This document shows, in pieces, positions 20,844 to 63,984 of a DNA stretch of 64,000 nt. The notes under the pieces were generated by a model. It was not told the DNA's origin, made no database searches, and worked only from the letters and a program-made list of their open reading frames with translations. The position numbers and the translations under genes are program-made. Numbering within the stretch: position 1 is the stretch's first letter; each line of letters opens with the position of its first letter. This stretch comes from Nautilus pompilius. Its lineage: Eukaryota; Mollusca; Cephalopoda; Nautilida; Nautilidae. The DNA is taken from contig JACATO010000309.1 in assembly GCA_018389105.1 (NCBI GenBank), positions 124,001-188,000 on the forward strand, written 5' to 3'.

Positions 20844-20901
20844 TGTTGGACAGCACCATCTTCTATGTGGCTCCTGTTTTTGAGCATATTTTCATTTTCT
20901 G
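20844..20901 (+). CDS. Ig gene 1, signal-peptide exon
   Basis: An acceptor (TTGGTTGCAG) precedes 20844 and a donor (CTG|GTAAGT) follows 20901. The ATG at 20865 opens MWLLFLSIFSFS, a short hydrophobic stretch typical of a secretory signal core, and the exon ends in phase 1, as signal-peptide exons of Ig genes usually do. The equivalent exon of gene 2 (61276-61323) has the same layout: a short leader containing TTGGA, an ATG, a hydrophobic run, and a phase 1 end. The codon split by the intron becomes Gly when joined to 23716. The product should enter the secretory pathway. Confidence 0.75.
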
Positions 20902-20906
20902 GTAAG

Positions 20907-23710
20907 TAATAGAATGTTTGATTTTTAATGCAATAAACTTTGAAAGTCAGTTATTGTATGAAACATGCAAACATTTTTTGATTAGATAGGAAGTATCCAG
21001 TAACTACTGAAGGACAATATAAAGCCAAATTTTGTTTGTAAACGGAAGTGGAATTCATTTACTTGATATACTTTCTGAGAATAATATTTCAAATTCATTT
21101 CCATTCCTTCTTAAAAGAGTTTAGTCTTGTGACATTCTCTTCTGAATACCGCCTTTTGGATAAACTCACAAACTGCTGTTAATTGTAATTGTTAGAATTT
21201 TATTTAAGATTCTATTTCATTGTAAAATACATGGAGTAAATAGTAATTTAGAAAATTGTGTAGTTTAACATACTTTATTAAAATTAATGAACTTGTAGTA
21301 ACACTGTTTTGTGCCTCAATCTATAAATATATAAAATCTTATTACAATTAAATGAAAATTTATGTAAATGAGAATTAAATCATCTTTTCTTTTGGATATT
21401 AAACAAAGGATTTGGATTTTTTTAAAATTCCATTATCAGCTCTGATATCAGCATCATATATATATATATTATTTGTGAAACAAAAAATAAATAGTTTAAC
21501 ATTAAAATATAATTTTTATGGTTTTGTTATTGGAAGATGGAAATAGTAAAGAAATTACTAGAGTTGAGCAAAATGTGATACATTTACGTTACATATAATT
21601 TACAGTCATAATATTAAAGTAAACATAACTGCAAAGGTTTTTAGAGGAGATATCGTAGATTATGATGGAAAATGTTTAATATGTAATGATAAAGGAAAAC
21701 CATACTAATCAAATAACTGAACAAGAGAAACTACTTATTTTTGGGCATTTAAATCAGTACTTTTTTCCTCAGGAAGTCAAGGTTTTGACTCAAACTCCAA
21801 ATTGACTAAATTATTGACAGTCATTGAAATTGCTTTGATAATTAAAAAAAAGAAATTTTCTGAAATAAACTGTAAAATTATTCATTTGAATCAGACTACA
21901 TCGATTATTTCTAGGAATGTTTATTAATTAGGTGAGCATTTCACTGTTAATGCACTCACTGAAGCATGTGAAATTATTTAACCAACAACTAGCCCATACT
22001 CACCAGTTACATTCTATCTATATGTATACATATTCCCAACAACTCCTCTACCTCATCTTAAAATGCCTCCTGTAAAGTCACGCAAATCTCACACGATATC
22101 TTTTTAAGCTAGAAGTTGTAAAGTTTGTTGTGGTAATATGGCCAAACATGGGAAGTGCGGTGTAAGGGATTGGCATAGAAAGGAGGATACATTACACACT
22201 CTAAAGGCCAAGTAAGTTAGTGTCTTTACATCTCTCCCTATATTACTTTTACTGATGTGTGGTATTCATCATGGCAATTTCTTGGATGTGTGTATCATTT
22301 CATCCACTCAGAGATCAGCAGAGTGTGTTGATTTTTGTGTTGGCCTAGGTGCAAATCCAATATGTCAGATAACTTAATAAAAGAAAGTTGGAGTTGAATT
22401 TCTTCATTTGAGTGTGCTGTATTATCTCAAAATCAGAATGTCGAAGATAGATAAAACTGACACGTTTGGCTTTCTAAAGTATGAGATTCAATAATACAAA
22501 CGACAGAGATGGCCTGATGATTGATAATGTGATGCAGTGAATAAAAATAGACACTGGGTTTTGATACCTGAACCTTGCAGTGTATTTTTCAAATATCTCT
22601 CCATGATTATAAACATGTTTAAAAGTTATTCCAAAACCTCATTTATCTGTAGGATTGTTCCACAAAGTAGTGAAATGATATGCACAGACAGGTCATTAAT
22701 ATTCATGAGCATAGAAGTACTCTAGACAGCAACGTGATGTGACAGTATTACGAAGGATTTGGTATTGTTCTGACTGGTTCATAACAATGTGACCCCCCCC
22801 AAATAATTTAGCTTTTGCTCCTAAGTGGAAAAGTGCTGAATGAAAACTGGCTTAAAGTTGGTAGCTATAGTCAGTGATTAAATGAACAAAAAAAACTTGC
22901 TTTTGACAGAAAAAAGGGTGATTAATACAGGGAGGTTTGGGCAATTCATATTGAAATGACAAATTGAAAAGAGCAGCAGCACGTACAGCTTGTAGATATA
23001 ATGAAAGTCATTTCAGCAATGTAAGCTGCACGTGTTAATATTTTGTGCTGCATACAGAATGTAAATAAATTGCATGTAAATATTTTTGAAATTGTTTTAT
23101 TACTTCTATTAAATAATCTGAGTTCTGAAATTTTTTTCTTTCTTTTAAATATATTAGCACCACTTCATGGTTTTAGTATTTAACAAACAGGAAACAGTTT
23201 ACATTTAAATCTGTTAGAGAAGTGGTGGCATAGAATGAAATGAAAAATAGCAGTAAAAGTAACCAGAAACTGGGCACAACAATTGGGATTTGATATCAGG
23301 AATTATACTAGTCCAGTCAGATAACAGCCCTTGAGGTGGTGTCTTCTGCCACTGCCAATAAATCCATACTTTATACAAGTGTACCAGAATAAAACACATT
23401 GCTCAGAAAGAAGATAAATGTGCTTTTTTTCTTTTTCTTTTTTTTAATACATTTATTTCTGGTGAAAACATGGATTTTTTTACTTTTAATCTTAAATCTT
23501 TTAAAAATAATTTTAAAAACCTGTATTTGTTGGTGTTTCTTGTTTGGTTCTAAATAGGTGACTGATCATAAATGAACATTGCACACAGTTATTGATGTTA
23601 CACTTTTAAGGTATGAAGAACACACACACACACACAAGCCATTTCTATTTATTTTTAGCCACCATTAGACATCTTCCTGCAAATATTTATGCTGTTTTAA
23701 TTCTTTATTT
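20907..23710 (+). other. Intron of Ig gene 1
   Basis: AT-rich sequence between exons ending at 20901 and starting at 23716. It holds an (AT)n tract near 21456-21470, a C-run near 22793-22800 and a (CA)n run at 23621-23636. No gene was recognised inside it. Confidence 0.6.
23621..23636. repeat. (CA)n microsatellite
   Basis: Eight CA units just upstream of the acceptor of the next exon. Confidence 0.9.
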
Positions 23711-23715
23711 TTAAG

Positions 23716-23994
23716 GAGCAATTACCTTGACTGGGCCAATAAATGTGTTAGAGAACAAACCCGTGACATTGATTTGCAAATATGCCTCTACCTATTCTTT
23801 GGAATGGTTTAGAAATAGCAGATCTTTTATAGCATGCACTACCAGGAGACCATGTACCTCTGCGACTGGCTACAAATCAACAGTGAATAAGACAACATCA
23901 GTGCTGCATATAGAATCAGTTACCATTGCTGACAGGTGCTGGAAATGTAAGCCTGACCTTGTTTCAACACCAGAATTTTGTTTGAATGTAGAGA
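23716..23994 (+). CDS. Ig gene 1, first Ig-like domain exon
   Basis: A 279-base exon between TTTATTTTTAAG and the donor GTAAGT, phase 1 at both ends, the classic symmetric exon of an Ig-superfamily domain. Translation gives a complete small Ig fold pattern: VTLICKY (first core Cys), YSLEWFRN (core Trp), a TSVLHIESVTIADRCWKC strand F region (second core Cys). The usual Tyr of Y-x-C is Trp. Two more Cys (FIAC and RRPC) lie between the core pair and could form an extra disulfide. It joins the signal exon directly, so the mature protein should begin with this extracellular domain. The ligand and partners are unknown. Its paralogue is the exon at 62072. Confidence 0.8.
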
Positions 23995-24236
23995 GTAAGT
24001 ATTCTTTCTATTATCTTTTTAACAAATAAAAACAATTTTTATTATTTAAAGTGTAAATAATTTTAAGGTTACTTTAAGATTGATTTTAAAAACAAAAAAG
24101 AAATTGCACAAACTGGATAGATCACAGATTATTTTTGTAATTCGGTTAGAATATTTTTATATACTGATATATTAAGTATCAGACCCTTTGTTAATTATCA
24201 TAAAGGTACTTGATCACATATGCTTATTTACCTTTT

Positions 24237-24261
24237 ATTATTATTATTATTGTTGTTGTTG
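24237..24261. repeat. (TTA)n(TTG)n tract
   Basis: Adjacent TTA and TTG triplet runs in an intron of Ig gene 1. Confidence 0.85.
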
Positions 24262-24963: not shown

Positions 24964-25073
24964 AACTTGGCCATAATATCACGTTAAGTGGAAAAACACT
25001 TGATCCTGATTCACTGACTGCTTGGATCGATTGTTCAAACCCTTATTACAAAAATGTAGTATGTTATTATAAA
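24964..25073 (+). CDS. Ig gene 1, second domain, N-terminal half exon
   Basis: A 110-base exon between TTTTGCAG and donor GTAAGTA, entering in phase 1 and leaving in phase 0. Joined to the previous exon, the split codon is Lys and the frame stays open. The translated end, AWIDCSNPYYKNVVCYYK, closely matches the exon at 63869 in gene 2 (AWIQCSNPIYTNITCYFLK), which confirms it as coding. The domain has one Cys early and one before the intron, and continues in the exon at 28671. A two-exon Ig or Ig/FnIII-like domain is likely. The exact fold class cannot be settled by eye. Confidence 0.8.
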
Positions 25074-25089: not shown

Positions 25090-28000
25090 AATTCTGTTTT
25101 ATGGTATTATTATTATTATTAAAAGGATCCATTTTTCATGTTGTTGTATGGTTATGTAAGTATAACAAACAAATTTATAGAAAACAGCATGTTTGCTGCA
25201 GAGAGATGGAGACATAGTTGAGAACGTCAATTCTAGATTCACAGTCTGGTGTACAGCCTCACCAGAATCTTTCCTAAACGTTTTGAGTGAAACCCTCTCG
25301 ATTATGGCAGTGTTCATTCTAAGGTGTACATTTGGACCTTGGATGTGTTTGTAGGTACCAGCAGCAGGTAATCAGTTTGAATGAAATCCTTAATCGTGCA
25401 AGTTTACTGGGAGGTTACAGGGAGAAGGGTTAAAATTAGTTAAATTTTTAAATCATTAAATATTTAATTTAAAATATACCAGTGGAAAGATAGAAATGTC
25501 TTAATTGCTTTTGTCCTTTGTTTCATTAGTAAATATCTGATGATTAAAATATCCTATAAATGGCCATTCTTCAGGCTGTGGAATACTAGCCAGCATCAGG
25601 TCACACATCACACTTCGCTTTACTTTTTTGTGACAAGTTGTTGACCAAACTCATATCTAAAAGTAGCAACTTAAGCAGGAGAAATTTGGCTTTCATCTAG
25701 TAGCATTTTAAAGAATGATTGTTTACTTGTCTACTGATATATACAATTAATAATAAGGTGAGTTTTTAAACATTTGCTATTTAAAAATACTCATACAAAT
25801 GTGGTATCAAAATCATCATCAGTGAATAAATGTTTATTCAAAGTAACACAAACATGCATTGTAAAAGAAAAGACCATCCTACCCCCATGTGGCTGAGACA
25901 CAAAAGATGCCTGTCAGAGGAGCTAGAACAGCAACAATCATTCTTAGATTATTTATGCCAAGGTAGATCAGTCCAAAATGTTTCATCGTTAATAAATTGG
26001 TGATGCGCTGACTTTAATGAACTGGGAATATTATTTCATTTATACATTGAAAAACTGGTTAATAGAAAAGAAGAAACTTCAGTGCTTTATTTTGAATTGG
26101 AGTTGATGAAAGATTTATATCTATCATATTTTAAATCCTAAAGCTATTGACATTCCTTCAGTGAAATAAATAACAACAAATTATATACTCATTTGATTGA
26201 AATGATTTTCTGTTAGCCTCGATAGATTCTGTTTGTTACCCGCTTTACTGGTTAAATTTCTGGGGATTTTTTTAGAGCGGAAGCTGGTCTGTATTTTACA
26301 TATGGATTTAATACATTTGCTTGCTCTATAATAATTTTATATTATGAAATTATAGTTATTAAGTGATTTATATCTACTTTTTTTGTAAATAATATTTCAA
26401 ATATACTGAACCAAATTATGATCAAATAAATTGAAAAATGTTGGAAACTGTGTAACAAGTAACGTTTGACCTGGATGTGATGGTCTGTGGTCTTCATGAA
26501 GAAAAGCATCAGGGAAATGTGCAGCAATGAATTTGTGATTTTTCGCAGTTTGTACAGTCAATTGACTAATTAGAGAAGGCATCTTGGATTTTTACAAAAC
26601 TTTACTTGAGAAGGTGATTATCTTTTTTTCCCAATCAAGGTAAGTGTGTTCACCAAGCAGTTTGCAATAACTATCTCTTTACTGAGCAATCTGAGAGAAG
26701 AATTGCTGTAGAAATGCCTCAAGCAGTCAGTCAGTCAGTCAACAAGGCAAGTTGCAGGACTGCAGAAATGTCACCCATGCCACCATTGTTCAGCTGTAGG
26801 GTGGTTATGCATATTAAAGCAGGTTAAACTTGCAACTCTGCACACACCAGACAACAAATGGTTAAAACTGTTACACAAGCCTGATAATCATCAGGCTCCT
26901 GATAGCAACAGTTATGGCAGAGCAGTAGTTCAAGGTAGCTGGATTGGGTAACCAGTTAATTGAGATACAATTGTCTGCAAGACTTTACATAGTGGACCCA
27001 TTTTTACCAAGGCATACAGCAGCAAAGGCAATTTTCTTGACTAATGTGAAGGGTCAACATTGAAAAAAATAATTGGGGTTGTGTATGTGCTGGGCTGGTC
27101 ACACTTAACTACTCAGTAATTTAAACATGAAGTTTCTTCTCCATTTTTGGCAAACAGCACTTTGAACCTTTTGTAGTAGGGCAGTAAGCATGCTCACACT
27201 GAGAGGATGTTTTAATTCCTTTAAGAACAGAAAATTGCTGTCATTCCATGGCCTGGCACACTTTTTGGATATGGCATCTGCAGCATTCCTGTGATGTGTT
27301 ATGATGCCAAGTTTATTGTCAAGGCCCTGTCCATATTTCTAAGAACTTTCAGAAGACTTACAGACTCAGTAAGACAGCACTGTGGCCTTTGTGCAAAACA
27401 ACAGAGAACGGGCTCAGTATTGGCACTTGTTGGCATGGTTGTCTGATGTGGCAATTTTTTTTCTCACTGGAATAAAACTTCCTTTATTTAATATTACAAG
27501 ACAAAACTTCTAGACTTCAGGGCAATTTAAAATATGAACAACTGAGGAAAAAACTATTACTGAATAGCAAAAGAACTTTGAAGTAGCATCATTAGTAAAT
27601 ATGGCTGCTGTTGTGGTCACACTCAGAGGACATCTAAGCAAAACACCCTCTCTCCTTGCCAGTACCAGGTGTGAGGTAAATTTGAGTTATGATTAAAACT
27701 AAAATCTCACAAATATATCAGCCATTTTTTTTTCCATTTGATCTTTTGTAATGTAGACAATAATTCCATACTTTGTGAGGTTTATTTACTGCAGAAGTAT
27801 TTTGTTCTTTGTATTCATCACTTTGATAGTTAAAGATTTTAGTTAATTTTATTATTTAAAAATAATCATAAGATTGTGTTGATTTTAGTAGAGATTTATA
27901 AGTTTTTCTTTGTTGTTTTCTCTTCAGTTATTTGCAAGTCTTATAGAGTATTTACTTCTTAACTTAAAAAAAAAGACAGAAGGATACAGAAATTTGATCT

Positions 28001-28660
28001 GAAATATTTAAATATACGAGCTATTTAAAATTGATTAATTTTAAAGGTTTTTAACTCATACATTTGTAACAGTTAAACTGCAGCAGTCATAATTCAGGAA
28101 TTGCTTTGGCTTTCTTATTTAGGATATCTTTTAAATCACTGGATATTTAACTTGTGTATATCTCAGATGGTTGAGGTACGATCGAGCCATCCTACAGAAA
28201 ATCATGAGTCAGACAGAACAAAGCACAGTTTGTCATTTACATTGTTTGAACTCTGCTGAACCATACGATGATAAGTGTGCATAAGAGAGATTTTATACTT
28301 GTTTCACGATATTTTCAGCGTTCTTCAAATTTGTCACAGCATACTACTTTGAAAAAGTAAAATTTTTATAATCAAAACATTCAGTGGCTTGGACATACAT
28401 GCATTTCAGAATCTGTCATTTGTACAATCTGCTAAATGGTTTTATTAACCATTGGACCTACCCCAATTTACGGCAAAATAATACATAGAAAACTTAAAAC
28501 TTGTAGAAATAAAAAGAAATTATGTAAAAATACAAGAGCTTCAGCTTTTAGAATTAGGCAGAAAACTGCATAAAAGACCAAATTGTTTTGTTTTCTTCTG
28601 TTGTATTTCTTTAAATGTAGATTTTGTTACATTTATACTGTAAAAATAATCACTTTTTTG
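25090..28660 (+). other. Large intron of Ig gene 1
   Basis: A 3.6 kb AT-rich intron. It holds a CAGT tetranucleotide run at about 26725-26742. A less AT-rich stretch around 26.7-27.5 kb resembles an old repeat but was not classified. Confidence 0.55.
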
Positions 28661-28670: not shown

Positions 28671-28884
28671 AATAAAACTACCACTAAAGAATTTGCTCAT
28701 GTAATATCTAAGCCTGTGTCAAAATGTTCATCTCCTGTTTTCAAAAAGACACTGGTAACTATAAATGTCACAGCTCAACAGCTACTCTCATCAAGAAATT
28801 ATTCTGCTTACTGTAAAGCAACCTTTGGTGGGTCTGAGGCTGATCAAACACTGACAAGCAATGAAATAACATTTTGGATAGCTG
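28671..28884 (+). CDS. Ig gene 1, second domain, C-terminal half exon
   Basis: A 214-base exon following a strong polypyrimidine acceptor (TTTTTTCCAG) and ending at GTAAGT. It enters in phase 0 and leaves in phase 1, so with the previous exon it makes a complete phase 1-1 domain unit. It encodes about 71 residues with several N-glycosylation sequons (NKT, NVT, NYS) and two Cys (SKCSS and AYCKA). The AYC motif with preceding Ser/Tyr-rich strand looks like an Ig F strand. It lies on the same strand and in frame with the exon at 24964. What follows, membrane anchor or stop, is uncertain (see the candidate at 29663). Confidence 0.75.
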
Positions 28885-29662
28885 GTAAGTCAGTCATTCA
28901 TTTTTACTTAAAATCTATTTTCTGTTAAATGAAACTTGTAAATACAATTTTTTAACTTGCTTGAAGATAAAGCATGAAGACTATCCATTTTGTAATGCAA
29001 ACTATTGCCATGTTGTTTTGTTTCCTAATTATTAACAGAGGTTCAACAACTTTCTTGTGAGTTACTATTTGCTACAAACACTTGGTAATGACACATTCAT
29101 AGATGTAAGTGTTTGATTTTAAATCTCTTAATTTCAATTTAAACTGTGCATGAATTAATTTTGGTTTGCTCTCACTCATTTTAATTAAAAACCAAATATA
29201 CTTAGAGCATAGTTTGAATTAAATTACTTATACTGAGTGTTTGACATGAATTTGGTTTAAGAAAGACATTGAAATATGAGTTTGGTAAAATCCAGAGCTC
29301 TGATAGATGGTTAATTGGAAGATTTCCTTTTAAGTATACACCGTAAATACTTGGAATTGTGCATGTTTACTTTATATAGATGTTTAGTTTTGAAAACTTA
29401 TATATAAAAAAATTTTTTAATTAGTAATGAAAACTATCCATTTATTTCTCTGGTTACTGATTAGGTGGAAGGCAGAGAGTGTAGCCTTGTTGATGGTTCA
29501 TTCATTCTCTGCAGAAAGAATTGCCAAATGAAATTGTTTTCTAAATATTTTCTCAGAAGAAAAAAAAATGTAAGAGAGAAACATGCAAAGTAAAATAACG
29601 AAATAATTTATGGACATAATGAAAACATTAATTGTTTCTCTTTTTCACTCTTTCTCACCCAG

Positions 29663-29793
29663 ATGGAGGAAGCCAGGTGGCCTTCAGTCTTCAGGATGCC
29701 TTTAACCTCAGAGGTCAGGCATATACTCTTGTGTTAGTTTTGAACTGCCTCAAACTTTGTGGAGTATTTGATATGCACCATAATTACATTTAA
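29663..29793 (+). CDS. Possible terminal exon of Ig gene 1
   Basis: A very good acceptor (TTTCACTCTTTCTCACCCAG) precedes 29663. Read in phase 1 from the previous exon, the frame is open for 43 codons (DGGSQVAFSLQDAF...) and includes a hydrophobic run, AYTLVLVLNCLKLCGVF, before TAA at 29791. A poly(A)-signal-like AATAAA lies near 29963. The hydrophobic run is short for a membrane span. Alternatively a weak donor (AGAG|GTCAGG) after 29713 would give a 51-base phase 1-1 exon. It could also be no exon at all. Confidence 0.35.
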
Positions 29794-30067
29794 CGTCAGC
29801 AACATTTACTTTTTCTTTTCTTCTACATTGGCATATCTGCTTAGTAAAACAACCAGCAGCAATAGATTATTTTCCATGGATTAATTGTAATATCTGGTCA
29901 TCTTTTTATCTAACAGCTTGGTTTATGCCGTTGACTTGAAATATGTATATTAACTGCCTAAGAATAAAAATGTTTGTCCCTGAATATATCCCTATACCAT
30001 AACAAAATATCATTGTGTAGTTCACTAGAAATGTAGGTTTATATTACTTCAGTAATAAAATTAATTC

Positions 30068-30400
30068 TCAAGTGGGTGCCCAAGTGGTCTGGTGGCCAGT
30101 CTATTGGACTGATAAGACTGATGGCCTGAGTTCAAATCTTGATCAGGGCCGGCTGAGTTTAATGTACCTTCGTGGTTTCTTCTCTTCACCAGTTGGCCAC
30201 TTGGGTTTCCACTAAATTTGGTTTTTGATTGCAGAAGAGTTCTGATAGGGACTTTTGCTTGTGGTCCACTGAGACAAGTTTTCGGAATCCACTCATGTAA
30301 GTGAGTAAATGTGATCCCTAATCCAAAACCAAGATAGGGATTCACAATCCCTGTAATGGTGAAGTGTATGACAACAATGACAATTTCATGCATAAATCTA
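30068..30400 (+). repeat. tRNA-derived SINE
   Basis: A tRNA-like head carries an A-box-like CAAGTGGTCTGGTGG (30081-30095) and a B-box GAGTTCAAATC (30128-30138) at tRNA-like spacing. A unique body follows, ending in a CAACAATGACAA-type simple tail. The layout is that of a pol III SINE. A 110-codon minus-strand frame across it is an artefact. Confidence 0.75.
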
Positions 30401-30734
30401 TGTATGTCAGCTTTTTTGTGCTATGATAATTAATGGGTTTCTTGCACCTGGATTTTTTTCATTTGAATCAGGTTTCCTCAATTCTCAGAGAGTAGTCATA
30501 TGTGAGTTTGGTGCTTTCCAATACAGGAATTATTAATGAACCCACGGGCAAGCCATTAAAAAATAAGACAGTTATTTATCACTATTATTAATATTAACTA
30601 TTTTATAAGCTGAAAATATTGTTGTAAGACATTTTAAATAAATATATTCATATTTGTAAAAATATTTTATTAAAGATTCAAGTAATTAATCTTTATAGAA
30701 TAAATAATACTTTATATTTTTAGACTTTATTTAA

Positions 30735-33050
30735 CAAGGAAAAAAAATGTCGGTTTGCAAGATAGTCTAGGTATTTCAAATTTATCCACCAGATATTTTG
30801 ATATTGTAGGATACATGTCAGCCAATGTCACTGTCGTGATCTCATTGTCCTCAACAACAAAGAACACACCTATCAGAACCATTCCTCTGGACAAACAGAC
30901 TCAATAGATATCACAATCACTAGCCCAGACATGGCAGCCAGAGTCAATAAGTGGAGAGTTCTTCATGATTCACTTGACACTGACCATTTTCCTATAGTAA
31001 CCTGCATAGAATATCCAGGAGTGGAAAGAAACATTCAAGCACAGCCCAAATGGAACATCAAAAAGCAAACAGGCAGCTATTTAGTTCGATTATTCAGCAA
31101 ACAGCAGCTGATGTTAGTATCTCAAGTAAACAGCAGCTGAACATTGATGACAAAGTTGAAGTTGTCACATCTTGCATAATCAATGCTGCAGAGGAAAGCT
31201 ATCCCTTAACAAGACCCCATCCAACACCGTGGTGCAATGAAGAGATTGCCAGTGAGCACCAAATAAAAAGAAAGCATGACAAAAGACACGGTTGCTTACA
31301 AAAGATAACAAGCTGTAGTCAGAAGAATCGTCAAACTAACAAAACACAGCTCATGGAAAGATTTTGTTGGCTCAATCAATCGAGATATCCCTTCATGCAT
31401 CATCTGGAAAAGAATCAAGACTATCAATGGTTCAAGTCGACCTATCCAAACAGCTTTGGAGCATGAGGGTGAATTTGTCACAGATCTTCAAGACCAGGCC
31501 CACTTATTTGGAGAGTATTATTCTGAAAAATGCAGTATTTTGAATTCTTCAATCAATCCTAAATTATTTTTGGATACAAAAGTCTTATCAACCAATCTAT
31601 AGACCTGCTCTGTGATAGAAGACATATGTGATCATCCTTCACGGTGGAAGAGCTCAATCTTGGACTAGCTGAGCTTTCTAACTCAGCTACTGGAGATGAT
31701 AAGATCCACATCCAGATGCCTAAAGATTTACCCATCAATGGGAAAGACATGATGTTTTCACACTTCAATGACATCTAGAAACAGGGAACTTACCCCTCAT
31801 CATGGAAGATTAGTAAAATTGTTCCTTTGCTAAATCCTAATCAGGATAAACAAAGAATTAAGTCTAACAGACCAATAGCTCTCACCTCCTCTCTAGACAG
31901 GCTATTTGAAAGACTCGTTAACACCCGCTTGAACTGGAAACTACACAAAGATCAAGGCTGGAACTCTTCATGCTCTAATGAAAATCAACGAGCAGGGTAA
32001 CAAAGGTCTGTTCAACAAGGAATATACTGTTTTAATTTTAATTGATCTCGAAGGTGCCTTTAATAAGGGGTGGTGGGAGGGTCTCATCACTAAGGCAGTA
32101 GAAATTGGAATAGCAGGGAACATGTTAAATTCAATAAGAAGCTTCCTAAATGAAAGATACATTAAAGTTCAAGTATCTGATCAAACCTCGAAGTAATTTA
32201 GCATAATACTGGCAATACCACAAGGTGCAGTTCTGAGTCCAACAATTTTCAATACCATGATGTATGATCTCCCCTCCATCATTCCAAAGCCCTGCTTTCA
32301 AATTACTTATGCTGATGATGGTACCATCACCATCACTCACATCAATCTAAGCTTTATGTCATCTAGCTTAATCAGTGCATGGCTGTCATTGACACCTGGG
32401 TGAGCAAATGGAAACTCAAAGTCTCCAAAGACAAGACAGAGTACACTGTTATCAACAAAAGGAGAGAAAACACCAACGACCTAACCCTAAACCTCATTGA
32501 CAATATTCAAGCCTCTGTTACACTTCAGTGGATACCAAGCCATGTACCAGTAGAAATGAAAGAACGTACACCCTGGTAAAGTTAGCAACAAGAAGTGGAC
32601 CGTCAACAAGCCTATGGAATCTATAGCTTCTCTCAAATGTGCTGTCAGTCGGTCAACTCTCAATATTTGGAAAAATCGTTGGCATGACGAGACAAGAGGC
32701 CTACTGTTCCCTACAGAAAAAGCCAAACTCAGTAAGCTACAGGAACAAGTAATTCTATCCTCACTGTGAATGCAACACTGTCCTTGCCAGAGCTACCTGT
32801 ACAGATTCAACTTGTCCCCAGATGCAACCTGTCCACTCTGCAAATCTGCAGATGAAACAATCATACATATTGTTTATGTCTCTCAAGAACTACAACACCT
32901 CAGACATCTTGACACAACCAAGACCTTCAAAGAAATTCATGAGAACAGGAACAATGAATGGGCTATCATTACATCACTAGTCAATGAAATGAAAATAAGG
33001 ATCCATGCAAGGACCTTGTGGGAAGCATGATTTACATAATAATGATAATA
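30735..33050 (+). mobile_element. LINE retrotransposon remnant, 5'-truncated
   Basis: Pieces in three + frames follow LINE ORF2 order. The end of an apurinic-type endonuclease (LHDSLDTDHFPIV, near 30960) comes first. Next is the reverse-transcriptase palm, with LIDLEGAFNKGWW (32040) and PQGAVLSPTIFN then YADD (about 32310). A QWIPSHV motif (32525) is typical of a C-terminal RNase H, and a CPLCKSADETIIH motif near 32835 sits at the end. An AT-rich TAATGATAATAA tail lies near 33035. This set suggests the Jockey/I/LOA group. Stops and frameshifts make it inactive, and the 5' half is missing. Confidence 0.8.
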
Positions 33051-33059
33051 ATTTAAGAA

Positions 33060-35225: not shown

Positions 35226-35343
35226 TTAGATGTTTGTTATATTTTCTGAAAAGAAGAGAAAAGCGGGATGTTTCGCTTTTAAGCACTGCACGGTATCGTG
35301 GTACTCACATAGCAGCAACAACAGCTACGATATAAAAACCGTC

Positions 35344-35395
35344 ATGTACCCACAAGTAAAAGAATTCATCCAAGAATGGGCACAGCCCATGTCAG
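35344..35395 (+). pseudogene. Exon-like segment 1 of an unrecognised gene, left copy
   Basis: The ATG at 35344 opens MYPQVKEFIQEWAQPMS, ending in phase 1 at a consensus-like donor (GTCAG|GTATAG). The right-arm copy keeps the start (MDPQVKGIGQDWAPP) but has a stop, and GG in place of the donor GT. Two copies with related protein and a donor in one suggest a former first coding exon. I do not recognise the protein. Later segments in this arm are damaged, so I list it as a pseudogene. Confidence 0.4.
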
Positions 35396-35699
35396 GTATA
35401 GAAAAATCAATGCAATAAACAAACCTAAAGCAAACATGATTATTTTCCTTTAGACGTCCATGGTTAGATTTTGCTTTTTTAATGACATTTGATAGATTAA
35501 TATTTGCTTGCAGTGACAAGATAATGGTAGAACAATTGAGGCAGCTGTCCACCTGCTGAGGGAAACCTGCTGAGTATCTTACTATAACTGTATTTCCGCA
35601 GACCAAAATGTACGGAATTTGATTATAAACTACAGTTTAAACAAAATCTATATATTTCAAATTCAAAGGGATGCTGACTGTTTGTTTATAATTAATGAT

Positions 35700-40182: not shown

Positions 40183-40199
40183 TATATTAAGGCTGTTTT

Positions 40200-43010: not shown

Positions 43011-43019
43011 TCTTGTTAT

Positions 43020-44550: not shown

Positions 44551-44559
44551 GAAGTTTTA

Positions 44560-47160: not shown

Positions 47161-47164
47161 TGGA

Positions 47165-48190: not shown

Positions 48191-48199
48191 CCATAATGG

Positions 48200-48990
48200 G
48201 TCTTCCTCCATGTCGGCAAATGTTCCATTGCATCAAGATTGGTTAGTGTCGTCTTAATTCGTAGTCATCGACCTGCTATCTGGCCACCAAATATAGTCCA
48301 ACGAACGCGGTGTCAGATACAGCACTAGAACTTGGTGTATGGTCCCTACCAATAATACATCCCTCATTTTCATCCACATTGTCGTCTTTATCATCATCAG
48401 AATCAAAAAAAAATACCTCATCATTAGCTACATTGTTATCTCTATCCTCATCCACAGCCATTCGTTCGTTTGTCGTGTCACCTGACGCAATTTGGTCGAA
48501 ATACATCGTGTGATGGTTATCCAAATTTTGCTCTCTCTCGTTCGGATCGTATCTTGTATAGATCATTACTCCGTATCCTTTTTATTCCCATAGCGATCTA
48601 CGGTTTATTTCGCGAAGTTACATTTGCCTGAAACCTCATCTTGAAATACCAATTATGCTTGTTTCCGAGCGAGGGATACTAGAATTGTATCAATATGAAC
48701 CCGCTGGTTGTGGACTCGGATCCTATGCCCCATGTACGCGTAGGGTTTAATTTTATCAGCGCCATCCAGTAATAATCGCTCGTGCTCCGGGTCGACCCCT
48801 TCCTTGATAAACTCGAATGCTGTGAACGGCAGGCAGTAGGTCTCACAATTAGTATTAATCCACTGATGCTGAGCTATACTTGGACACTTGGTTTTCAAAC
48901 ACTGATTTCATAAACGCTTCCAGTGCACAAAATTCACACAGCCGTGATCAACACGGCACTGAGAATAGGCCTTAGGTCAGACATCACGGC
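48200..48990 (-). pseudogene. Unidentified coding block, distal part
   Basis: Two minus-strand frames follow each other: 48898-48653 (81 codons, containing VDPEHERLLLDGADKIKPY) and 48566-48276 (96 codons, with an Asp/Glu-rich stretch FFFDSDDDKDDNVDENEG and ending FVGLYLVAR). GC and CpG content are well above the host introns. Just outside the hAT insertion the open frame here lines up with the frame on the far side (about 51.62 kb), so both belonged to one gene or gene array. I do not recognise it. A large DNA transposon or an integrated DNA virus would be possible sources, which is inference only. Confidence 0.5.
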
Positions 48991-48999
48991 GTGTTGATT

Positions 49000-51614: not shown

Positions 51615-52600
51615 GTGCACGGACTAATTTCTTCATTTCAACAGCATGAGTGGTTGAAGTGGATACAATGCGATTTAGCATGTCCAAATTATCATGAGAT
51701 AGAATTTCTCCCGACAGTTCGTTTCTCCTTCATGTCTTTGAATGTTACAGCCTTGTCTATTTTCGATAGTGAATTACCACCGATTCGATCGATTGGACCT
51801 GGATATTTGTCCAAAGATGCTCGCATTACGAATCTGGACGGTGGTCTTCGAATCAGCCTCGGAAAGTGTACTTCATTACTGTCCAATAAGATCTTTTTCG
51901 TTGTTCAGAATATCATTTGTACATTTGATTTGTACACTAAAAATTTGACAGCTCTGTTCACTCTCAAGTCATCGTATCGCATCACATGTCTTGTTTCAGC
52001 AGCAATGCATTATCGTCAACCATGTATTTGAAATGTCGCCTGGAAGGTGCTACCTGCTCTTCACTAATAACAAACATCTCTTTCAACAAGTTCGACTCGA
52101 AGGTTTTGCATATCGGAGCCAGCCACACCGGCTTTTGAATATTCCATTCGGGCAAACTGCTGATCAACGTCTTCATGTTCTTTTTCAGTTTGTCGTTTGA
52201 AGCTCTCTCTCCGATGGATTATTAGGTGCCCCAACGAATCCTGGTTATGAGGATATATCACTTCACAAATTCCATCACACACATGGCTTACATAGTGAAT
52301 CATTCGGCCGACTGATTCTTCTTCCAAGTCCGTCACTGATATGATCTCCCTTGCTTCTTTGCTGGCAAAAATTGTCGAATATCTGATACAGATGGCATCG
52401 TTTGCTTCTCCAATTCCTCAAAGGATTCTTTTGTGCGTCCTTTTTTATGTCGCCGTTCAGTCTCTTTGTCGTCATCAATTTCTCTGTATATAGTTTGGGC
52501 CTGCCCACGTCTTGGCTTTCGCCCACTGATCAGTTGGCACCTACACGTGCATTTACTGTATTCTAAACAATTATAGATTAGCTCTATGGCAGTTTAATGA
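51615..52600 (-). pseudogene. Unidentified coding block, proximal part
   Basis: Minus-strand open segments follow one another with overlaps in changing frames. About 52590-52345 has a Cys-rich start (KCTCRCQ) and then a charged region. 52336-52064 includes SVGRMIHYVSHVCDGICEV. 52176-51982 includes VAPSRRHFKYMVDDNALLL. 51886-51692 includes SRFVMRASLDKYPGPIDRIG. The overlaps suggest single-base shifts in a once continuous gene. Base composition is GC- and CpG-richer than the surroundings. No known family was recognised, and the block ends abruptly at the hAT insertion. A 151-codon frame on the + strand is probably a shadow. Confidence 0.5.
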
Positions 52601-54528: not shown

Positions 54529-54732
54529 GTGAGTTCTATGTACGAAATCGTAACTTTTGACTAAGTTTATGGATTTTCATAATTTGTTTTCTCTCGTAAA
54601 AATAACGATCTCTCAAGGAGACAAGAGATCTATAACAAATCGGGTTAAAGCGGGTTGGCGCCTAGCAGGATGCTACTGTACATTGTTTCTCTTGTATCAG
54701 GTATTTAAAGTTAATAGGAGGCACAGACTCAC

Positions 54733-54828
54733 CTGTAGTTTGTTGGTGATGTCAAAATAGTGGAAAGAGAACTGGCTTACAAACTCTCCGGTAATGTGTT
54801 TGTCTAGTCCGGATACTGGTCTGTCTTT
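54733..54828 (-). CDS. Exon-like segment 3 of an unrecognised gene, right copy
   Basis: On the minus strand, one frame is open from about 54828 to a good donor (CTACAG|GTGAGT) before 54733, ending in phase 0. It includes VSGLDKHITGEFVSQF and FHYFDITNKLQ, protein-like in composition. The left copy has the same donor but a broken frame, so this copy retains the better frame. No clear acceptor was seen on the 5' side. The function is unknown. Confidence 0.35.
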
Positions 54829-55574
54829 CTTTTTTAAAATTTCTTATGTATAGATCCAATGAATCAGGTCTTAAGACTTTTAAAATCAACAAATTCAGTT
54901 GCATTCCGACAGGAATTTGAGGCTCATTTTCTGTCGGTGCATAAATATCGTTGATTTTTACGAGTAATTTAATTGGGATATTTCTACTTTTAGTAATTTC
55001 AAAGTTTGCCGTTCAGACAGAAGGTAAAACATAGCAAGAGAAACTCTTGATAACAGTTATACAGAAGTTCTCTGAAGTACCGTGTACTGGATCACATCAT
55101 ATGCCCTAAATCAATGAAGAACACTTCAGGAAACAGCGAACAATTCTTATGAATAAGTCGGTTTATTTTCTTAAATAAATAATTTACATTTACACTTCTG
55201 GTAAATAATCTCGACCTTTTACTTATTTTTTCAAATCCAACTTGATCATTTCATTTATATTTGTATGAGTAATAATGACACCCTCTAATCTTGTAGTTAT
55301 CACTAAAATCATTTACTTTCCTGTTTATTTTCTAGTTTTTAGTAGGTTTCTGTATGTTCGCGAAGTGATGATTTCAAAGAAGTAGCCAATGAGCAGCTTT
55401 ATTAATGTATAGTGTGTATATGCACGTCCACTGTTATCAAGAGATTTGTCTTGAAATATTGCTGTGTAATAGTTTGATATAATCCGCTGATATCTGATCA
55501 AACTTGACAGTAATCATGTACAAGGGAGTTTAGCTAGTGGTGAATGAGAAAGGAGAGACAAATTTTGTAATTAC

Positions 55575-55660
55575 CTTGAAAAGATTCAAACATGGCACTG
55601 TGGTATTTTAATATATTCAAGAGAGAATCAATAATGGTGCCTGATTTTAAAGTGGCGGTG
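55575..55660 (-). CDS. Exon-like segment 2 of an unrecognised gene, right copy
   Basis: Same 86-base unit as 38584-38669, preceded on its strand by AATTCTTTCAG and followed by GTAATT. Its open frame encodes the same peptide. See the left copy for limits of the evidence. Confidence 0.35.
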
Positions 55661-57612
55661 CTGAAAGAATTTGCCTTGATTTTAACGGCATAATGACAGT
55701 TGTGTACAAAAAAGGAGATAAGAAACAAAACAGATACAGTAACAAAAAAGAAACGTTCACTGTTCAGTTCAGTATTTCCATGTAAATCATAATTTGGCCC
55801 ATATACAATGGGAGTGACTTACTCCTGCTAGCTCCAGCAGCAGCAGCTGTCATCTGAGCACAAATTTCTTCTGTATTGGGTAGCTGCTAGTAACCACTTC
55901 CTCAAATTAGTATGCCATATTTTGTAAAATGGCTAATGTCTGCTGAGATAAGATTTTATTGATGATGTCGATGAGTGGAGACTTAATTCCCATAGAACTA
56001 CACAATATAAACAGTAAACTCAAGGAAAAATTATTGGAATTTAATTAAATTTTCTGTAGTCATAGAAATTTTGAAGTAAAGGGGTTCATGGAATAATATT
56101 TTTATATCAGTGAAAAAGACTGATTTTAGATCTCTGCTCTACTGCAGGTTAAAAATAGCTTAGCTTTACTGAAATAAAGCACATTCAAGATATGGGGAGA
56201 AACAGTCAGAGCCTTGACATACTGTACATGTAATATGAAGTAAGCATAGAAAGTAGGGGATGGCATCCACAGTGGGGCCTTTGATCTGTTGGTCTAATAC
56301 AGTTCCTTATTCATGGAGGACCAAGAAAAATAACCCTTTAACTACCTAGCAGCTAATGTTCCTATGAAGATGGCACTGATGTCCTACAACTTGAAGCTCG
56401 AGACATTGTGGATGTGATGTAGTTTGAGAAAGGGAATCACTTCTGATGATTTAAAATTAAAACACCCAACATGCATGTGATTACCCAGCATGCCGTGCAC
56501 ACTAAGTTACTTGATGTCAGCTGGAAGAATGAAGAAAAAGGATATCTCAGGAATGAGCCAGCAAGCCACTAGTTGATCTGTTTTATGGTGATATTTGACC
56601 CCACCTAAGAAATAAATTCTGTTCATTGTGCACAAAACACTTAACAAATTATCTACTAGTGCACATGAGAGCCAATAACACTGGTAAGACGTACAACCTG
56701 GCTCCATATTGTAAAATCTTTTGAATGACTAGTCTACAAACAGTACAAGGGAGGTAATTAGCTTTATTAGAGATCACTATAAAATATTCATGATCTAGAA
56801 ATTATCCACCTTGTATTGACAAAAGCAACTGCTGAATTTATTGTGATTTTGACCAACTGAGAGGACCCAAGTTAACCAAGAAAGCCAGTGTTTATTTTCC
56901 AGGGAACAGATGTTGCTAAGAAGAAGCCAATTTATCTGTTCAGATTTATTTCATAGTACAAATGTTAAATGTCCGTGGCCATAAAATATGTATTCATTGA
57001 TAATTGAAAATTACATCTTTACATGTAATAATTGATATACTGTGTTGGCTGGTTCAAATTAATAAGACAGATTTAAGATTATAACGTTAATATTGCTTTC
57101 ATTTTGCTTCAGAAACAAACTGGGTCTACATGTGTAAAGATACACTTGTTTCAGGAATACTAGGAGCTATATATGAATAATTACAGCAGAGAACAATAAA
57201 CATTTCATTATAATCCCAGTTCAAAGCAATAGCCATTGTATAAAATAACAATAAACCTATCAATGAGCTCGCTTCATCAGGTTTAGATTATTAAAAACTA
57301 TATCTTGTTGAGGTCACCATTAATTATAAACAAACAGTCAGCATCCTTTTGAATTTGAAATATATAAACAAAAGCTAAGCTGTAGTTTGTAATCAAATTC
57401 CATACATTTTTGGTCTGTGGAAAATAAGATACTGGTCAGGTTTCCCTGACCAAGTGGACAGCTGCCTCAGTCGTTTTACCATTATCTTGTCACTGTAAGC
57501 AAATATTAATCTATTAAATGTCATTAAAAAACCAAAATCGAACCACGTACGTTCAAAGGGAAGTAATCAGGTTCGCCTCGTGTTTGCTTATTGCCCTTGA
57601 TTTTACTATCCC

Positions 57613-57663
57613 TCAGAAGGGCGGTGCCCAGTCTTGGCCGATTCCTTTTACTTGTGGGTCCAT
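57613..57663 (-). pseudogene. Exon-like segment 1 of an unrecognised gene, right copy, broken
   Basis: The ATG at 57663 (minus) starts MDPQVKGIGQDWAPPF and then hits TGA. At the position where the left arm has CAG|GTATAG, this copy reads GAG|GGATAG, so the donor is lost. It is degenerate here while the left copy is intact, the opposite of segment 3. Confidence 0.4.
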
Positions 57664-58242
57664 GACGGTTATTATATTGTGGATGCTGCTGCTAGGTGAG
57701 TACTGCGATACTGCGCAGATTTCTTTAAAGCGGAACATCCCGCTTTTTTTCCTCTCTAGGTATAACAACAAACATTTAAAGTGGCTCAGTAAGAAACAGA
57801 GAGAATTTTTGGCCGTGTGGTTTGGCCCCGGACTTACATCCGACCAACGGCTCGGGGACATCTCAGGGAGCCGTGTTGCTGGTCACCAGGTCCGCCCGAG
57901 CTGGACGTGGACCCGGTCGAGGAATGGCGCGACAGCTGATTTGGTCGGCACAAACACCCGCTGGAGCTCGTGTACCGGGGTCAATCGGGGCCACCACACA
58001 CCTTAGTAATTCCCTTTCTGAGACATCCTTACCATTTCCCTTATGTCAGACAGACGGTTTAACTTGGCTTCCGAAAGGATTTTGTTCTCTTCATGTTTTC
58101 TTTAATTTTTTATTATATACACCCATGAATCAGTCAGTGGCCGCGAGAGGTCGGGGGAGGGTTAACGGTGGGGTGTATTTCCACTCATTCATTATTTCGC
58201 GAGTTCCACCGGAGACTCGAATAAGCCGGTGACTTTGGCCTA

Positions 58243-58353
58243 ATGGCGGAGCCGTCCAGGGTCGAGGATCCTGTCCCGGTGTTGTTGTTGTTGTTGTTGT
58301 TGTGCTTTGGCTGTTTGTATCCTCAGCATCGGGTGTCGCACACGCTTAGCCAG
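58243..58353 (+). CDS. Possible first exon with a Leu-rich hydrophobic start
   Basis: The ATG at 58243 opens MAEPSRVEDPVPV, followed by seven Leu encoded by a TTG repeat and CFGCLYPQ, up to a donor AGCCAG|GTGAGC in phase 0. It looks like a signal peptide or membrane anchor, but the Leu run could simply reflect the microsatellite. If spliced to the exon at 61276 the frame soon meets a stop, so for Ig gene 2 it would only be a leader or upstream ORF. It may belong to another gene or be non-coding. Confidence 0.3.
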
Positions 58354-58899
58354 GTGAGCCCTCTTCGGAATAGGACAGAAGGTCTGCCTCCCGAAAGTGA
58401 AAGTCCGCCTCGCTGCCGTCGGGTTTGTCCCCTGGGGACAGACGGGTCCCGGTCCCGAGCTCTGGTCGGGGAGCTGGAGTGAAAATAAGGGCGTTAGAAA
58501 GCGGAAGAAGGGCGACCTCGTGACAGACAAATGGGGCCTGAGTGGAGGGATCGCCATCTTCTCGGACATCCGGCCTCCAGCTATCGAATTATGGGGTGGG
58601 GAGGGAGGGCTGATCGGGAGAACTCGATCTGTGGGAGACAACGAACCGAACTGTTCAAAATTTGTGTTTGAGAGGGTGGAAATGACGGGTAACGGGGGGG
58701 GGCGGCTCCTTTGGAGAGAAGGGGGCAGGCGGCTGGCGTTTCTGGTGACGACGATTCATATTTGAAAAGCAAGCAGCAGGCGAGCGTTTTCCAACAGAGC
58801 CTCGCCGAGGAGCCCATCAGGGTCTGGCCGTAGACGGGCGTCTTAATTGTGCCCCGGCCTGGGTTCTCCATAATTCCTGTAAGCGGATGAGAGGAATTT

Positions 58900-59975
58900 T
58901 TGACGGTTGCTGTTAGTATTAATAGTGGTAGAGTAAATTTAAACATAGTATTAGTAATCACCACCCCCTCCGGCTCATAATGACTGAACTAGGCTTAAAA
59001 TATAATTAAATAACAATAACAACAAAGTAATGTTAGTGTATTCATCAGCAGCCATTCCAGAGAAATATGAACGGAAAAATAAACTTCTCATTGTTAGTAT
59101 TAATTGCTGGGTGTTGTTTTCTCCACTAGAATCGGGGCTATGGCTTCCTAAACCTTTGCAGTAACTCGAATACATACCTGCTAAAAATCATACTTGTGAA
59201 CTGCTGCTATTTATAAAAACTACTAAAGGATCTGAACTAAATATCTTTTATACATAGGCTTTCTCTGACTCTGTATATATGTAGTCAGTACCTGGTAATG
59301 TAGGTAGAGCAATTACTGTTTCTGCTGGTCATCTTAGTCATTAAATATAATGTAAATCTATTTATGATGCATATATTAAATATTAAGCAGCATGGAGTTT
59401 ACTCAATGTCCATGTGTCTTCCGTTGCTTCAGCCTTTTCTGTAGTTAACTATTCACCTATGAGAGTTTTCTTATTTCTGAAAACAAGATGTTTGAACAGT
59501 TTGTCTTACATGTAATGTTTACCCACCACCAACATTCTGATAATGATGCTGCTGATAGCTGTTCAGGGTTTCTCTCAAAATCTCCTGAATAGTGCAGCTT
59601 TGAAAGCTAAATTTAAGTTGCCCATTTACAATTAGATATCTGTTTTGTTGTCAGTCAAACCACGAGCTTGATGGACCCAATGATTAAAAAGTGGCTACAT
59701 TTAAGTAAAGGAAGTTTGTGCTGTACACTTGAAAAATAACTGGCTGTTTTGTTAAAAGAGATGAAAGTCTTACATTTCCCATCTAGCTGCAGAGAAAAGG
59801 TTGCCTAGAGAAAGTTTTTTTTAAAACTATATGACACTTAGGATATTTTTGGATGGGAAAAAAAAATGCTGCATAATATTTCCTATGACACCTGTTTTAT
59901 AAGTTTGTTGTTTTCCTATTTTGAACGGCTGTCCCCTCAACTGGCAAATAGATTAAATTTATGCTGTGCACTATA
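58900..59975. other. No supported gene
   Basis: Composition returns to AT-rich after the CpG island. No coding, RNA or repeat feature was recognised. It may be the first intron of Ig gene 2. Confidence 0.4.
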
Positions 59976-59979: not shown

Positions 59980-60218
59980 CAGGGTGTCCGTAAAGTTACT
60001 ATACAGTCTTTACCAGTTTACGATCACGTCCCAATTGAACCAGCCTGGAATAACTGTCTGGGCAGGAATATCGTCTGATGGAATTGTGGGTCCACAGTTC
60101 TTCGACGGAACTGTTACAGGAGAAAGGTACCTGGACAAACTGAGAAATGTCATCGTACCGGCATTGAAACAACGACCAGTAACTTGTAAGACTGTATAGT
60201 AACTTTACGGACACCCTG
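59980..60218. mobile_element. MITE from a Tc1/mariner element, TA-flanked
   Basis: A 239-base unit with ~31-base perfect inverted ends (CAGGGTGTCCGTAAAGTTAC and onward), flanked by TA at 59978-59979 and 60219-60220. The interior still encodes a piece of transposase on + (ITVWAGISSDGIVGPQFFDG then TVTGERYLDKLRNVI), the stretch between the first and second catalytic Asp in this superfamily. It is therefore an internal-deletion derivative of an autonomous element. It cannot encode a working enzyme but could be mobilised by a full-length relative. Confidence 0.9.
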
Positions 60219-60224
60219 TATATA

Positions 60225-61270: not shown

Positions 61271-61275
61271 TTCAG

Positions 61276-61323
61276 ACTTGGAAACAATGTTGCTGCTGCA
61301 CTGCATGCTTTTAGCAGTCACAG
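61276..61323 (+). CDS. Ig gene 2, signal-peptide exon
   Basis: Acceptor ATTTTCAG before 61276; donor ACAG|GTAATA after 61323. The ATG at 61287 starts MLLLHCMLLAVT, a hydrophobic signal core, and the exon ends in phase 1. The split codon becomes Asp when joined to 62072 and the frame continues through the Ig exon. Same architecture as 20844-20901 in gene 1, including the short TTGGA-containing leader before the ATG. The product should be secreted or a type I membrane protein. Confidence 0.75.
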
Positions 61324-62071: not shown

Positions 62072-62383
62072 ATGCTCTACCAAAAATAAGTTATCCTAAA
62101 AGGCCTGTTCATGGAGAAGCTTTTGTTATTACCTGCTCTTTTTCAAGGAACTGGGATTCTCCATTGATCTGGAAGAGAAATGGTGAAAAGGTTGTTCAGT
62201 GTGTTAGAAAAGCAAAAACAAAAGAAAGGGAATATTTGTGCATTCCTCACAAATCCTACTCTGCAACAGCCAATGCTACAGCATCAACACTACAGATATT
62301 ACAGTTTAACATATCAAATGATCTCATTTGGTCCTGTGAAGACTGGCAGAGTACTGCAGCTAAGCAAACACTCACTTCATACA
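62072..62383 (+). CDS. Ig gene 2, first Ig-like domain exon
   Basis: A 312-base exon between TTTTTTTTGAAG and donor GTAAGTA, phase 1 at both ends. Pattern: FVITCSFS (core Cys), PLIWKRN (core Trp), STLQILQFNISNDLIWSCED (strand E-F with second core Cys, again W-x-C instead of Y-x-C). Two extra Cys (VVQC and YLCIP) lie between the core pair as in gene 1. There are N-glycosylation sequons at NAT and NIS. It is alignable by eye with 23716-23994 in gene 1 but clearly diverged, so the duplication is old or the domain evolves fast. Its ligand is unknown. Confidence 0.82.
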
Positions 62384-62759
62384 GTAAGTACACAGCAGCA
62401 AGGAGGGGTTGTTAAAATCTCTATAATTCAGAAAGGGAAAGACTAAAACAAAAACCTCAAACAGTGAAGAATAAACAAGTGATGTAGACACATTCTCGAT
62501 AAATTAATAGAAGCAAAGCTAGAACTGGTGGCATAAGGTCTGTTACAGCTTCAGGAAAGAATGAGAAACAGTGCTAAAATGTTTTATCCCAAACCTTTAA
62601 TGATTGTATGATTCCTCATCTTTGGTATTTTCCATATTTTTATAACTTTTTATTAATCTCTGGTCTAACATCATTTTAAAATGGAGCACTCAGTTTAGGT
62701 TGGCTGTTATGTAATAAGTGCTAGCGACATTTGAAAATTCACAACAAGTCGGTTTATTG

Positions 62760-63075
62760 GGTGATGTTTATGCCTTTGGATGATGTAGCATCACACAACT
62801 TGAGGGCTCTAAATGGCGTGGCCAGCCCTTGCTAAGATACATATGGACTCTATGCCTCGTACAATGGCTGCAAGAATGATTCTGGCTCATCCCAGACCTG
62901 TACAATTGGGTTGAGACCAGGAGGCCAGTCAAGCACTTTGATGCACTTAAGAAAGCTTGTCTCATCAGCCTTTGTGTGTGGGCATGCTCAATGTTATGCT
63001 GGATCATCTTGTGCACCCTGCAGCATTGTGGAGGATTGCACAGAATACTGTGCACACATCCCTGGCTTATCACAG
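62760..63075 (-). pseudogene. Tc1-like transposase remnant
   Basis: Minus-strand translation across two frames gives a stretch equivalent to the QDNDPKHT block (MIQHNIEHAHTQ), then IKVLDWPPGLNPIVQVWDE, which corresponds to [20 protein letters not shown] around the third catalytic residue. Here it is degraded. It lies in an intron of Ig gene 2 on the opposite strand. Confidence 0.6.
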
Positions 63076-63079
63076 TGTT

Positions 63080-63865
63080 ATGTGCTCTAATCTGATGATT
63101 CCGCCATCAGATCTTGTTGAAGTCATTCAATTATATGACAAACAAGTACACAATTTTATCTGCATCATACTTGGAAATAATAATGTTTAAAATTATTTGA
63201 ATGCATATCTTTTCTCCAGCAGAATTCAGAGAAAATGGAAATTCATTATTTTAAAAAATATTGAGGGTATTCAATTACATCTACAATTGATATCTTTAGA
63301 GAATCCATCTTTAAACAAACCACGATTTCTTTTATACTGAGCACATGGCTCATTGTAGATTAATGGCTATCGCCGTTTTCCTTCTCTACAAAAGTCCATG
63401 TCCTTTACCCAGCCTATTTAAATACATTCAAGGGATCGGAGTGCCATTATTGAATTTCTTTTCTTAGGTCTCACACTGAACTAAAGTTCCATGATGTCTG
63501 CTCTTGGTTCTGATGGTACATCTGTGAAGTTTGGTTTAATTTGATTGTTTCTCTTCTGAATTCATTCCATGCTTTTCAAGTGCAGAACAAATTATAATAT
63601 GGCCTAAATAACAACTGAAACAAAACAAAAATGTCAAAAATATAAGTGCTAAAATAATAATAATAATATAATATTAGAAATTCTCTTTTAAAGAAAAGAA
63701 AAATTAATAGCACAAATGTAGGATGGGTCTAATAAAGTATTTTAAGATTAATACAACAAATGTAATGACATTAAATAGAAAGGATTCTCTTTGGGTCTAC
63801 CACATTAGTAAACCGTTTTGTATAATTTGTTTATAGTAGTAAAAGGATTCTCTCCACATTTCTTG
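63080..63865 (+). other. Rest of an intron of Ig gene 2
   Basis: AT-rich, with a short TAA run near 63653. No feature was recognised. Confidence 0.5.
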
Positions 63866-63868
63866 CAG

Positions 63869-63984
63869 AGTATTCTTCTGGCATGTTTTTGAAAATTCTA
63901 AAAATTGCCAATTCCTTTATGCTGTTTGCATGGATACAGTGTTCAAACCCTATTTACACTAATATCACCTGCTATTTCCTCAAG
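63869..63984 (+). CDS. Ig gene 2, second domain, N-terminal half exon
   Basis: A 116-base exon between TTTCTTGCAG and donor CAAG|GTAAGT. It enters in phase 1 and leaves in phase 0, exactly like 24964-25073 in gene 1. The end AWIQCSNPIYTNITCYFLK is the clear counterpart of AWIDCSNPYYKNVVCYYK. The codon split from the preceding exon becomes Lys in both genes. The other half of the domain should lie just beyond the window, by analogy with 28671-28884. Confidence 0.82.

Follow-up and report, generated by a model that had tools for sequence, protein, structure and literature searches.

Two distantly related V-set immunoglobulin genes of Nautilus pompilius and a putative family of diversifying recognition receptors

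A 64,000-nucleotide stretch of the Nautilus pompilius genome (GenBank assembly GCA_018389105.1, contig JACATO010000309.1, positions 124,001 to 188,000 of the forward strand; hereafter the window) carries two sets of exons for immunoglobulin (Ig) domains, here called gene 1 and gene 2, and raises the question of whether they belong to a fast-evolving family of recognition receptors. An initial annotation had described, twice on the plus strand, a signal exon ending in phase 1, a phase 1-1 Ig exon and a second domain split by a phase 0 intron, and had proposed a tandem, possibly immune family of secreted or membrane proteins. Both exon sets are present in these phases, with AG acceptors and GT donors, and the position given for the start of the first set, 20844, is the exact first base of gene 1 exon 2. 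We followed both genes across the whole assembly (727,640,739 bases in 2558 contigs), in which the window is C300:124001-188000. Gene 1 appears to have roughly twenty copies, and we hold with moderate confidence that they represent a diversifying recognition-receptor family of type I surface proteins. An immune role may be suggested by analogy.

Gene 1 copies and the divergence of their V exons

The splicing of gene 1 can be read from an intronless copy on contig C592, in which window segments 13857-14044, 20841-20902, 23709-23994, 24964-25073 and 28671-28884 lie fused end to end; where exons 2 and 3 overhang by a few bases, the alignments overlap. Because this retrocopy joins the exons at identical bases, the predicted gene 1 splice junctions are confirmed, and we infer that a germ-line messenger RNA with gene 1-type exons once existed. 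The retrocopy also revealed a first exon, within a CpG island, that the initial annotation had overlooked; it is 95% identical to the retrocopy as far as the exact GT donor. Past domain 2 the frame of the retrocopy encodes a stalk rich in Thr and Ser, then a transmembrane segment and a tail that is short and basic, and its 3' part consists of a 3' untranslated region (UTR) common with contig C1010 and then an A-rich tract. A small insertion disrupts its V part.

A genome search with the V exon of gene 1 gave at least 44 matches at E up to 0.001, some of them fragments of one copy. For exon 5, 25 matches were obtained at E up to 1, not all of them strong or complete, and of the 24 for exon 1, 21, counting the window itself, are 99-100% identical over 178-182 bases. 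The copies are dispersed and lie in both orientations, four of them on C300 itself, an arrangement that departs from the tandem cluster first proposed. Introns of nine copies have diverged by ~4.6% in substitutions, and exon 1 with its 5' UTR (window 13864-14044) is far more alike between copies than the introns are. Divergence from L028, the sole copy compared near exon 1, is near zero around that exon and rises over ~3 kb, which suggests homogenisation there.

The V exon behaves differently from its surroundings. Nineteen V exons were aligned, and 11 were analysed after removal of six array units, the retrocopy and the near-duplicate C2140. The 11 encode 11 distinct proteins, with pS 0.064, pN 0.100 and dN/dS 1.62; the corresponding ratio for exon 4 is 0.38 (12 copies) and is indistinguishable from 1 by bootstrap. 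Among the nine copies with all three exons, and from pairwise counts that are not independent, the V exon has 92.6 substitutions and 0.80 indels per kb, compared with 46.4 and 9.75 in introns, 8.8 and 7.75 in exon 4, and 24.1 and 3.12 in exon 5. Eight of 150 overlapping intron windows of V-exon length reach the V substitution rate, three reach its low indel rate and none reaches both. Loop positions show a mean of 0.83 extra residue types and strand positions 0.36, a difference with a shuffle p of 0.0049 that none of 91 circular shifts reached; C'-D and FG are the most variable internal loops. A minimum of 14 recombination events is required for the V exon (38 sites, 345 incompatible pairs), none for exon 4 (2 sites) and one for exon 5 (7 sites), and the observed mean identical tract among V exons is reached in 1 of 500 column shuffles. 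We regard these comparisons as moderate to good evidence for V-exon diversification. The rapid evolution of the first domain that had been proposed is thus seen among close relatives of gene 1, which is where it was measured, and not between genes 1 and 2.

Gene structures, domains and surroundings

Table 1 Features of genes 1 and 2 (positions in the window or, where marked, window-equivalent)
Feature	Position	Strand	Details
CpG island around gene 1 exon 1	13001-14500	.	CpG o/e (observed/expected) 0.79-1.45
Gene 1 exon 1 (5' UTR and start)	13857-14044	+	ATG 14012, MAWSANAICCQ; GT donor; mapped 5' limit provisional
Gene 1 exon 2 (signal peptide)	20844-20901	+	AG/GT; end phase 1; frame fits exons 1 and 3
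Gene 1 exon 3 (V-set Ig domain, extra cysteine pair)	23716-23994	+	phase 1-1
Gene 1 exon 4 (domain 2, first half)	24964-25073	+	AG/GT; end phase 0
Gene 1 exon 5 (domain 2, second half)	28671-28884	+	AG/GT; end phase 1
CpG island upstream of gene 2	57251-59250	.	CpG o/e 0.77-0.97; GC up to 0.59
Gene 2 signal exon	61276-61323	+	acceptor by eye 61275; ATG 61287; end phase 1
Gene 2 V-set Ig exon	62072-62383	+	phase 1-1; Pfam Ig_3 E 0.0022 (below curated cut-off); AlphaFold pLDDT 83.8
Gene 2 domain 2, first half	63869-63984	+	end phase 0
Gene 2 domain 2, second half	67069-67285 (window-equivalent)	+	beyond the window, read on C300:185001-195000
Gene 2 transmembrane exon	68042-68152 (window-equivalent)	+	~4 kb past the window end, same contig

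The V exons of genes 1 and 2 start 38.4 kb apart (Table 1), and the motif AWI.CSNP, noted earlier as common to the two half-domain exons, is found as AWIDCSNP and AWIQCSNP. The ectodomains align with an E value of 2e-17 at 26% identity over 215 columns, so the paralogy proposed at the outset stands, although as that of distant homologues and not of recent tandem twins. In simulated one-strand windows, a half-domain-like exon (acceptor, phases and W-C-C pattern) occurred in 1 of 40; the same script returned only the gene 1 exon from the real window, its edge margin excluding the gene 2 exon.

Assignment to the Ig family is borne out by these homologous ectodomains and by a V-set fold with the canonical B-F disulphide and tryptophan in the modelled structure. 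Four V-domain cysteines are common to genes 1, 2 and relatives, those on C1816, C570 and C332 among them (seven members aligned), as are four cysteines of domain 2 (five members aligned). A seven-member V profile matched antibody light chains, JAM and T-cell receptor (TCR) V domains at E 4e-4 to 6e-4, and the top Protein Data Bank (PDB) matches of a four-member profile were TCR V-alpha domains (E 2e-4). The Pfam model Ig_3 scored 21.1 and 18.9 bits, under its curated cut-off of 30. Domain 2 matched no profile in Pfam or PDB, the gene 1 protein and the four-member profile had zero matches among 5.8 billion proteins, and a search of viral contigs returned nothing. Three other leads were dropped: PDB matches to designed TPR proteins, which were 20-residue chance matches summed over repeats; a likeness of domain 2 to cytokine-receptor D1 (C-x9-C), which no search backed; and the sole NCBIfam match (E 0.032), taken as chance. 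Relatives on C1816, C570 and C332 each have a single long open frame and may be retrotransposed copies. Another relative (L044:665-1627, a 321-codon frame) has a C-terminus that by eye looks multi-pass, with ~3 hydrophobic stretches, not single-pass.

Of the secreted and membrane proteins proposed, a membrane form is supported by the transmembrane exons of gene 2 and C1010, whereas none was found for gene 1 over 28885-45000, nor were the stalk, transmembrane segment and short tail of the retrocopy found for gene 1 itself. On C1010, exons 1, 3, 4, 5 and 6 are ordered on one strand, and exon 2 would fall outside the stretch read. Its tail as read by eye has no tyrosine, and hence no classical immunoreceptor tyrosine-based activation or inhibition motif (ITAM or ITIM) in that copy. 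Its V exon lacks one base relative to the window; part of a published account describes the Nautilus assembly as PacBio-based (PMC8257504), so if that is the same assembly, single-base gaps may be errors.

V exons also recur without the rest of the gene, at a spacing of ~3.27 kb, on C773, C2491 and C2341, with two further units on C469; exons 1 and 5 are absent from the match lists for these four contigs. On C773 (1-19602), where the arrays were read at sequence level, and also on C2491, the unit consists of window 21761-24087 and an inverted piece of 27542-28531, with one V exon per unit. Eight of the ten units on C773 and C2491 are free of a stop or frame break, and the V exons have ordinary splice sites, with splice dinucleotides intact in the six aligned C773 units.

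The island around gene 1 exon 1 is probably the gene 1 promoter, given that seven of the window's eight 8-kb bins have a CpG o/e of only 0.21-0.47; that at 57251-59250 is a candidate promoter of gene 2, a link that we infer. The window as a whole is strongly CpG-depleted (o/e 0.38 overall, 0.21 in two bins), and further CpG-rich stretches lie at 47.3-49.0, 51.0-53.0 and 54.0-55.5 kb, in addition to those at 13.0-14.5 and 57.3-59.2 kb. Between the genes (33112-52417) are transposon remains, namely a Tc1-type transposase (41059-41775, minus strand), a Spin-doc zinc finger (34341-34895, minus strand) and DUF4371 (49983-50303, plus strand); seven of ten open reading frames scanned there had no Pfam match. 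An inverted repeat (35314-40506 and 54565-57693), with blocks 81-99% complementary and 14-22 kb apart, probably represents a mobile element present twice in opposite orientations. A short element at 59981-60222, with inverted ends (by eye) around a transposase-like fragment, is possibly of mariner type. Elsewhere in the assembly, 14 molluscan haemocyanin units lie seven per locus at C557:780-792 kb and C1362:511-522 kb, which could be two genes or two haplotypes; none of 14 control genomes matched. A vertebrate source, to which CpG depletion and the Tc1-type transposase had seemed to point, was rejected in view of these units.

Explanations of the family

As diversifying receptors, the proteins would consist of a signal peptide, a V-set Ig domain, a four-cysteine domain 2, a transmembrane segment and a tail, with a stalk added in the C1010 form. 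The V-domain loops would bind variable ligands, either pathogen surfaces or self markers, and domain 2 would serve as a spacer or partner surface; with no tyrosine in the C1010 tail, signalling would require a partner. Selection would favour loop novelty, and segmental duplication and gene conversion would supply the variation. Gene 1 and the other copies that lack a transmembrane exon would be secreted, act as sequence donors or be in decay.

Several results weigh against this reading. The V-exon excess is only just significant, as pN is no greater than pS in 3.5% of codon bootstraps with 11 copies and in 5.3% with nine. The V-exon pS lies above the intron level, so part of this excess may stem from gene conversion by divergent donor sequences. 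Short contigs, possibly redundant haplotypes, hold many of the copies, and collapse or redundancy in the assembly may heighten the mosaic impression. Exon 5 carries no purifying signal: its dN/dS of 1.15 (14 copies) is indistinguishable from 1, although purifying selection had been expected there, and its low divergence is also seen in the flanking intron. The indel rate of exon 4 is close to that of introns, and the six V-only array units have a dN/dS of 1.02. Several copies are damaged, at least two of them lacking both the V exon and exon 4, and outside the retrocopy a gene 1-type transmembrane exon was found on C1010 alone.

The last of these points also suit a reading of decay, in which recent, transposon-rich segmental duplications amplified a single receptor gene whose copies are now mostly in decay; the V differences would then be old alleles shuffled by gene conversion and would have little function today. 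Besides the damaged exons and the lone matching transmembrane exon, the loss of V and exon 4 common to C1985, one C1536 copy and probably C300:57k (where the stretch read ends too early), the transposon sequence within the duplications and the V-only arrays fit such a history. Neutral decay would not, however, leave a single exon with twice the substitutions and one-twelfth of the indels, nor would it favour loops over strands, and ten of the 11 compared dispersed V exons have no gaps or insertions. We consider decay unlikely, while giving it more weight than any other rival.

A family that recognizes something other than pathogens, in self/non-self discrimination, gamete recognition or cell adhesion, is a weaker candidate still. 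The germ-line transcription implied by the retrocopy is consistent with it, as are membrane-anchored variable V domains, which occur in allorecognition and gamete-recognition families.

A more elaborate scheme, which we think highly improbable, would make the V-only 3.27 kb arrays on C773 and C2491 a store of V exons, used as donors or cassettes, for the ~20 modules sharing a near-invariant promoter exon; the mollusc would then have a V-plus-constant receptor system in which gene conversion or splicing creates diversity, possibly somatically. That both exon sets are open frames arisen by chance, or parts of a single transcript bounded differently, finds some encouragement in the weak Pfam scores but is refuted for gene 1 by the retrocopy junctions and made hardly credible overall by the homology between the genes, their two separate signal exons and CpG islands, and the separate downstream exons of gene 2.

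Comparison with known recognition systems

If the family does diversify for recognition, it would offer a concrete cephalopod case for how an invertebrate makes recognition diversity, in the germ line only or not, with changes centred on the loops that antibodies use and V-exon blocks common to several copies. The FREPs of snails, which are fibrinogen-related proteins with IgSF domains, are grouped with the VIgLs. The comparisons that follow draw on parts of the cited papers. FREPs are secreted proteins with one or two V-type Ig domains and a fibrinogen domain, some of them single-exon and probably retrotransposed (PMC7588048). They resemble the Nautilus proteins as a molluscan multigene V-type Ig family with single-exon members, which C570, C1816 and C332 may match, and differ in being secreted and in carrying fibrinogen, where the Nautilus proteins have a transmembrane segment. 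By reading, the retrocopy and C1010 pass from domain 2 through stalk, transmembrane segment and tail to a stop with no fibrinogen or lectin domain, and gene 2 has none as far as the transmembrane exon that follows domain 2. Because no fibrinogen domain was seen, the Nautilus proteins are unlikely to be FREPs in the sense of that account; the Ig domains themselves (IgSF1 and IgSF2) were compared by description only.

Two further systems lie outside the molluscs. Chelicerate sDscam genes have many tandem Ig cassettes with preceding promoters, spliced to a constant exon (PMC4835542), and the likeness is in the multiple tandem Ig units and the promoters before them. The Nautilus modules, in contrast, have their own domain 2 and lie in both orientations, and no common 3' exon was found. 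The 41-gene Alr family of Hydractinia, which combines V-set and I-set domains in self/non-self discrimination (PMC11999971), is likewise a multigene V-set Ig family; judged by description only, it differs in having an I-set domain, whereas the Nautilus domain 2 matches no profile.

In titles and abstract openings, a literature search found no molluscan membrane receptor family of one variable V and one conserved second domain, nor any article about the present family, and the word 'immunoglobulin' appears nowhere in the main text of PMC8257504. The GRC and PTC2 clusters of Biomphalaria encode proteins that cross the membrane once and whose extracellular parts are hyperdiverse and, in GRC, beta-rich; PTC2 includes related genes without a transmembrane part, has no known domains and is not homologous to the GRC genes (PMC4361660, PMC7494358). 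Single-pass membrane proteins with diverse ectodomains would be the shared trait, represented here by the transmembrane exons of gene 2 and C1010, although the figures for V diversity come from copies of gene 1 type, among which such an exon was found only in C1010. The Nautilus family differs from PTC2 in its clear V-set domain, and its diversity is between copies in one assembly, whereas that of GRC/PTC2 is allelic. By analogy, the snail FREPs and GRC/PTC2 appear to be the nearest molluscan parallels found, and the Nautilus family, if it is what we propose, would be a V-set, membrane-bound counterpart to the FREPs and to the GRC/PTC2 resistance clusters.

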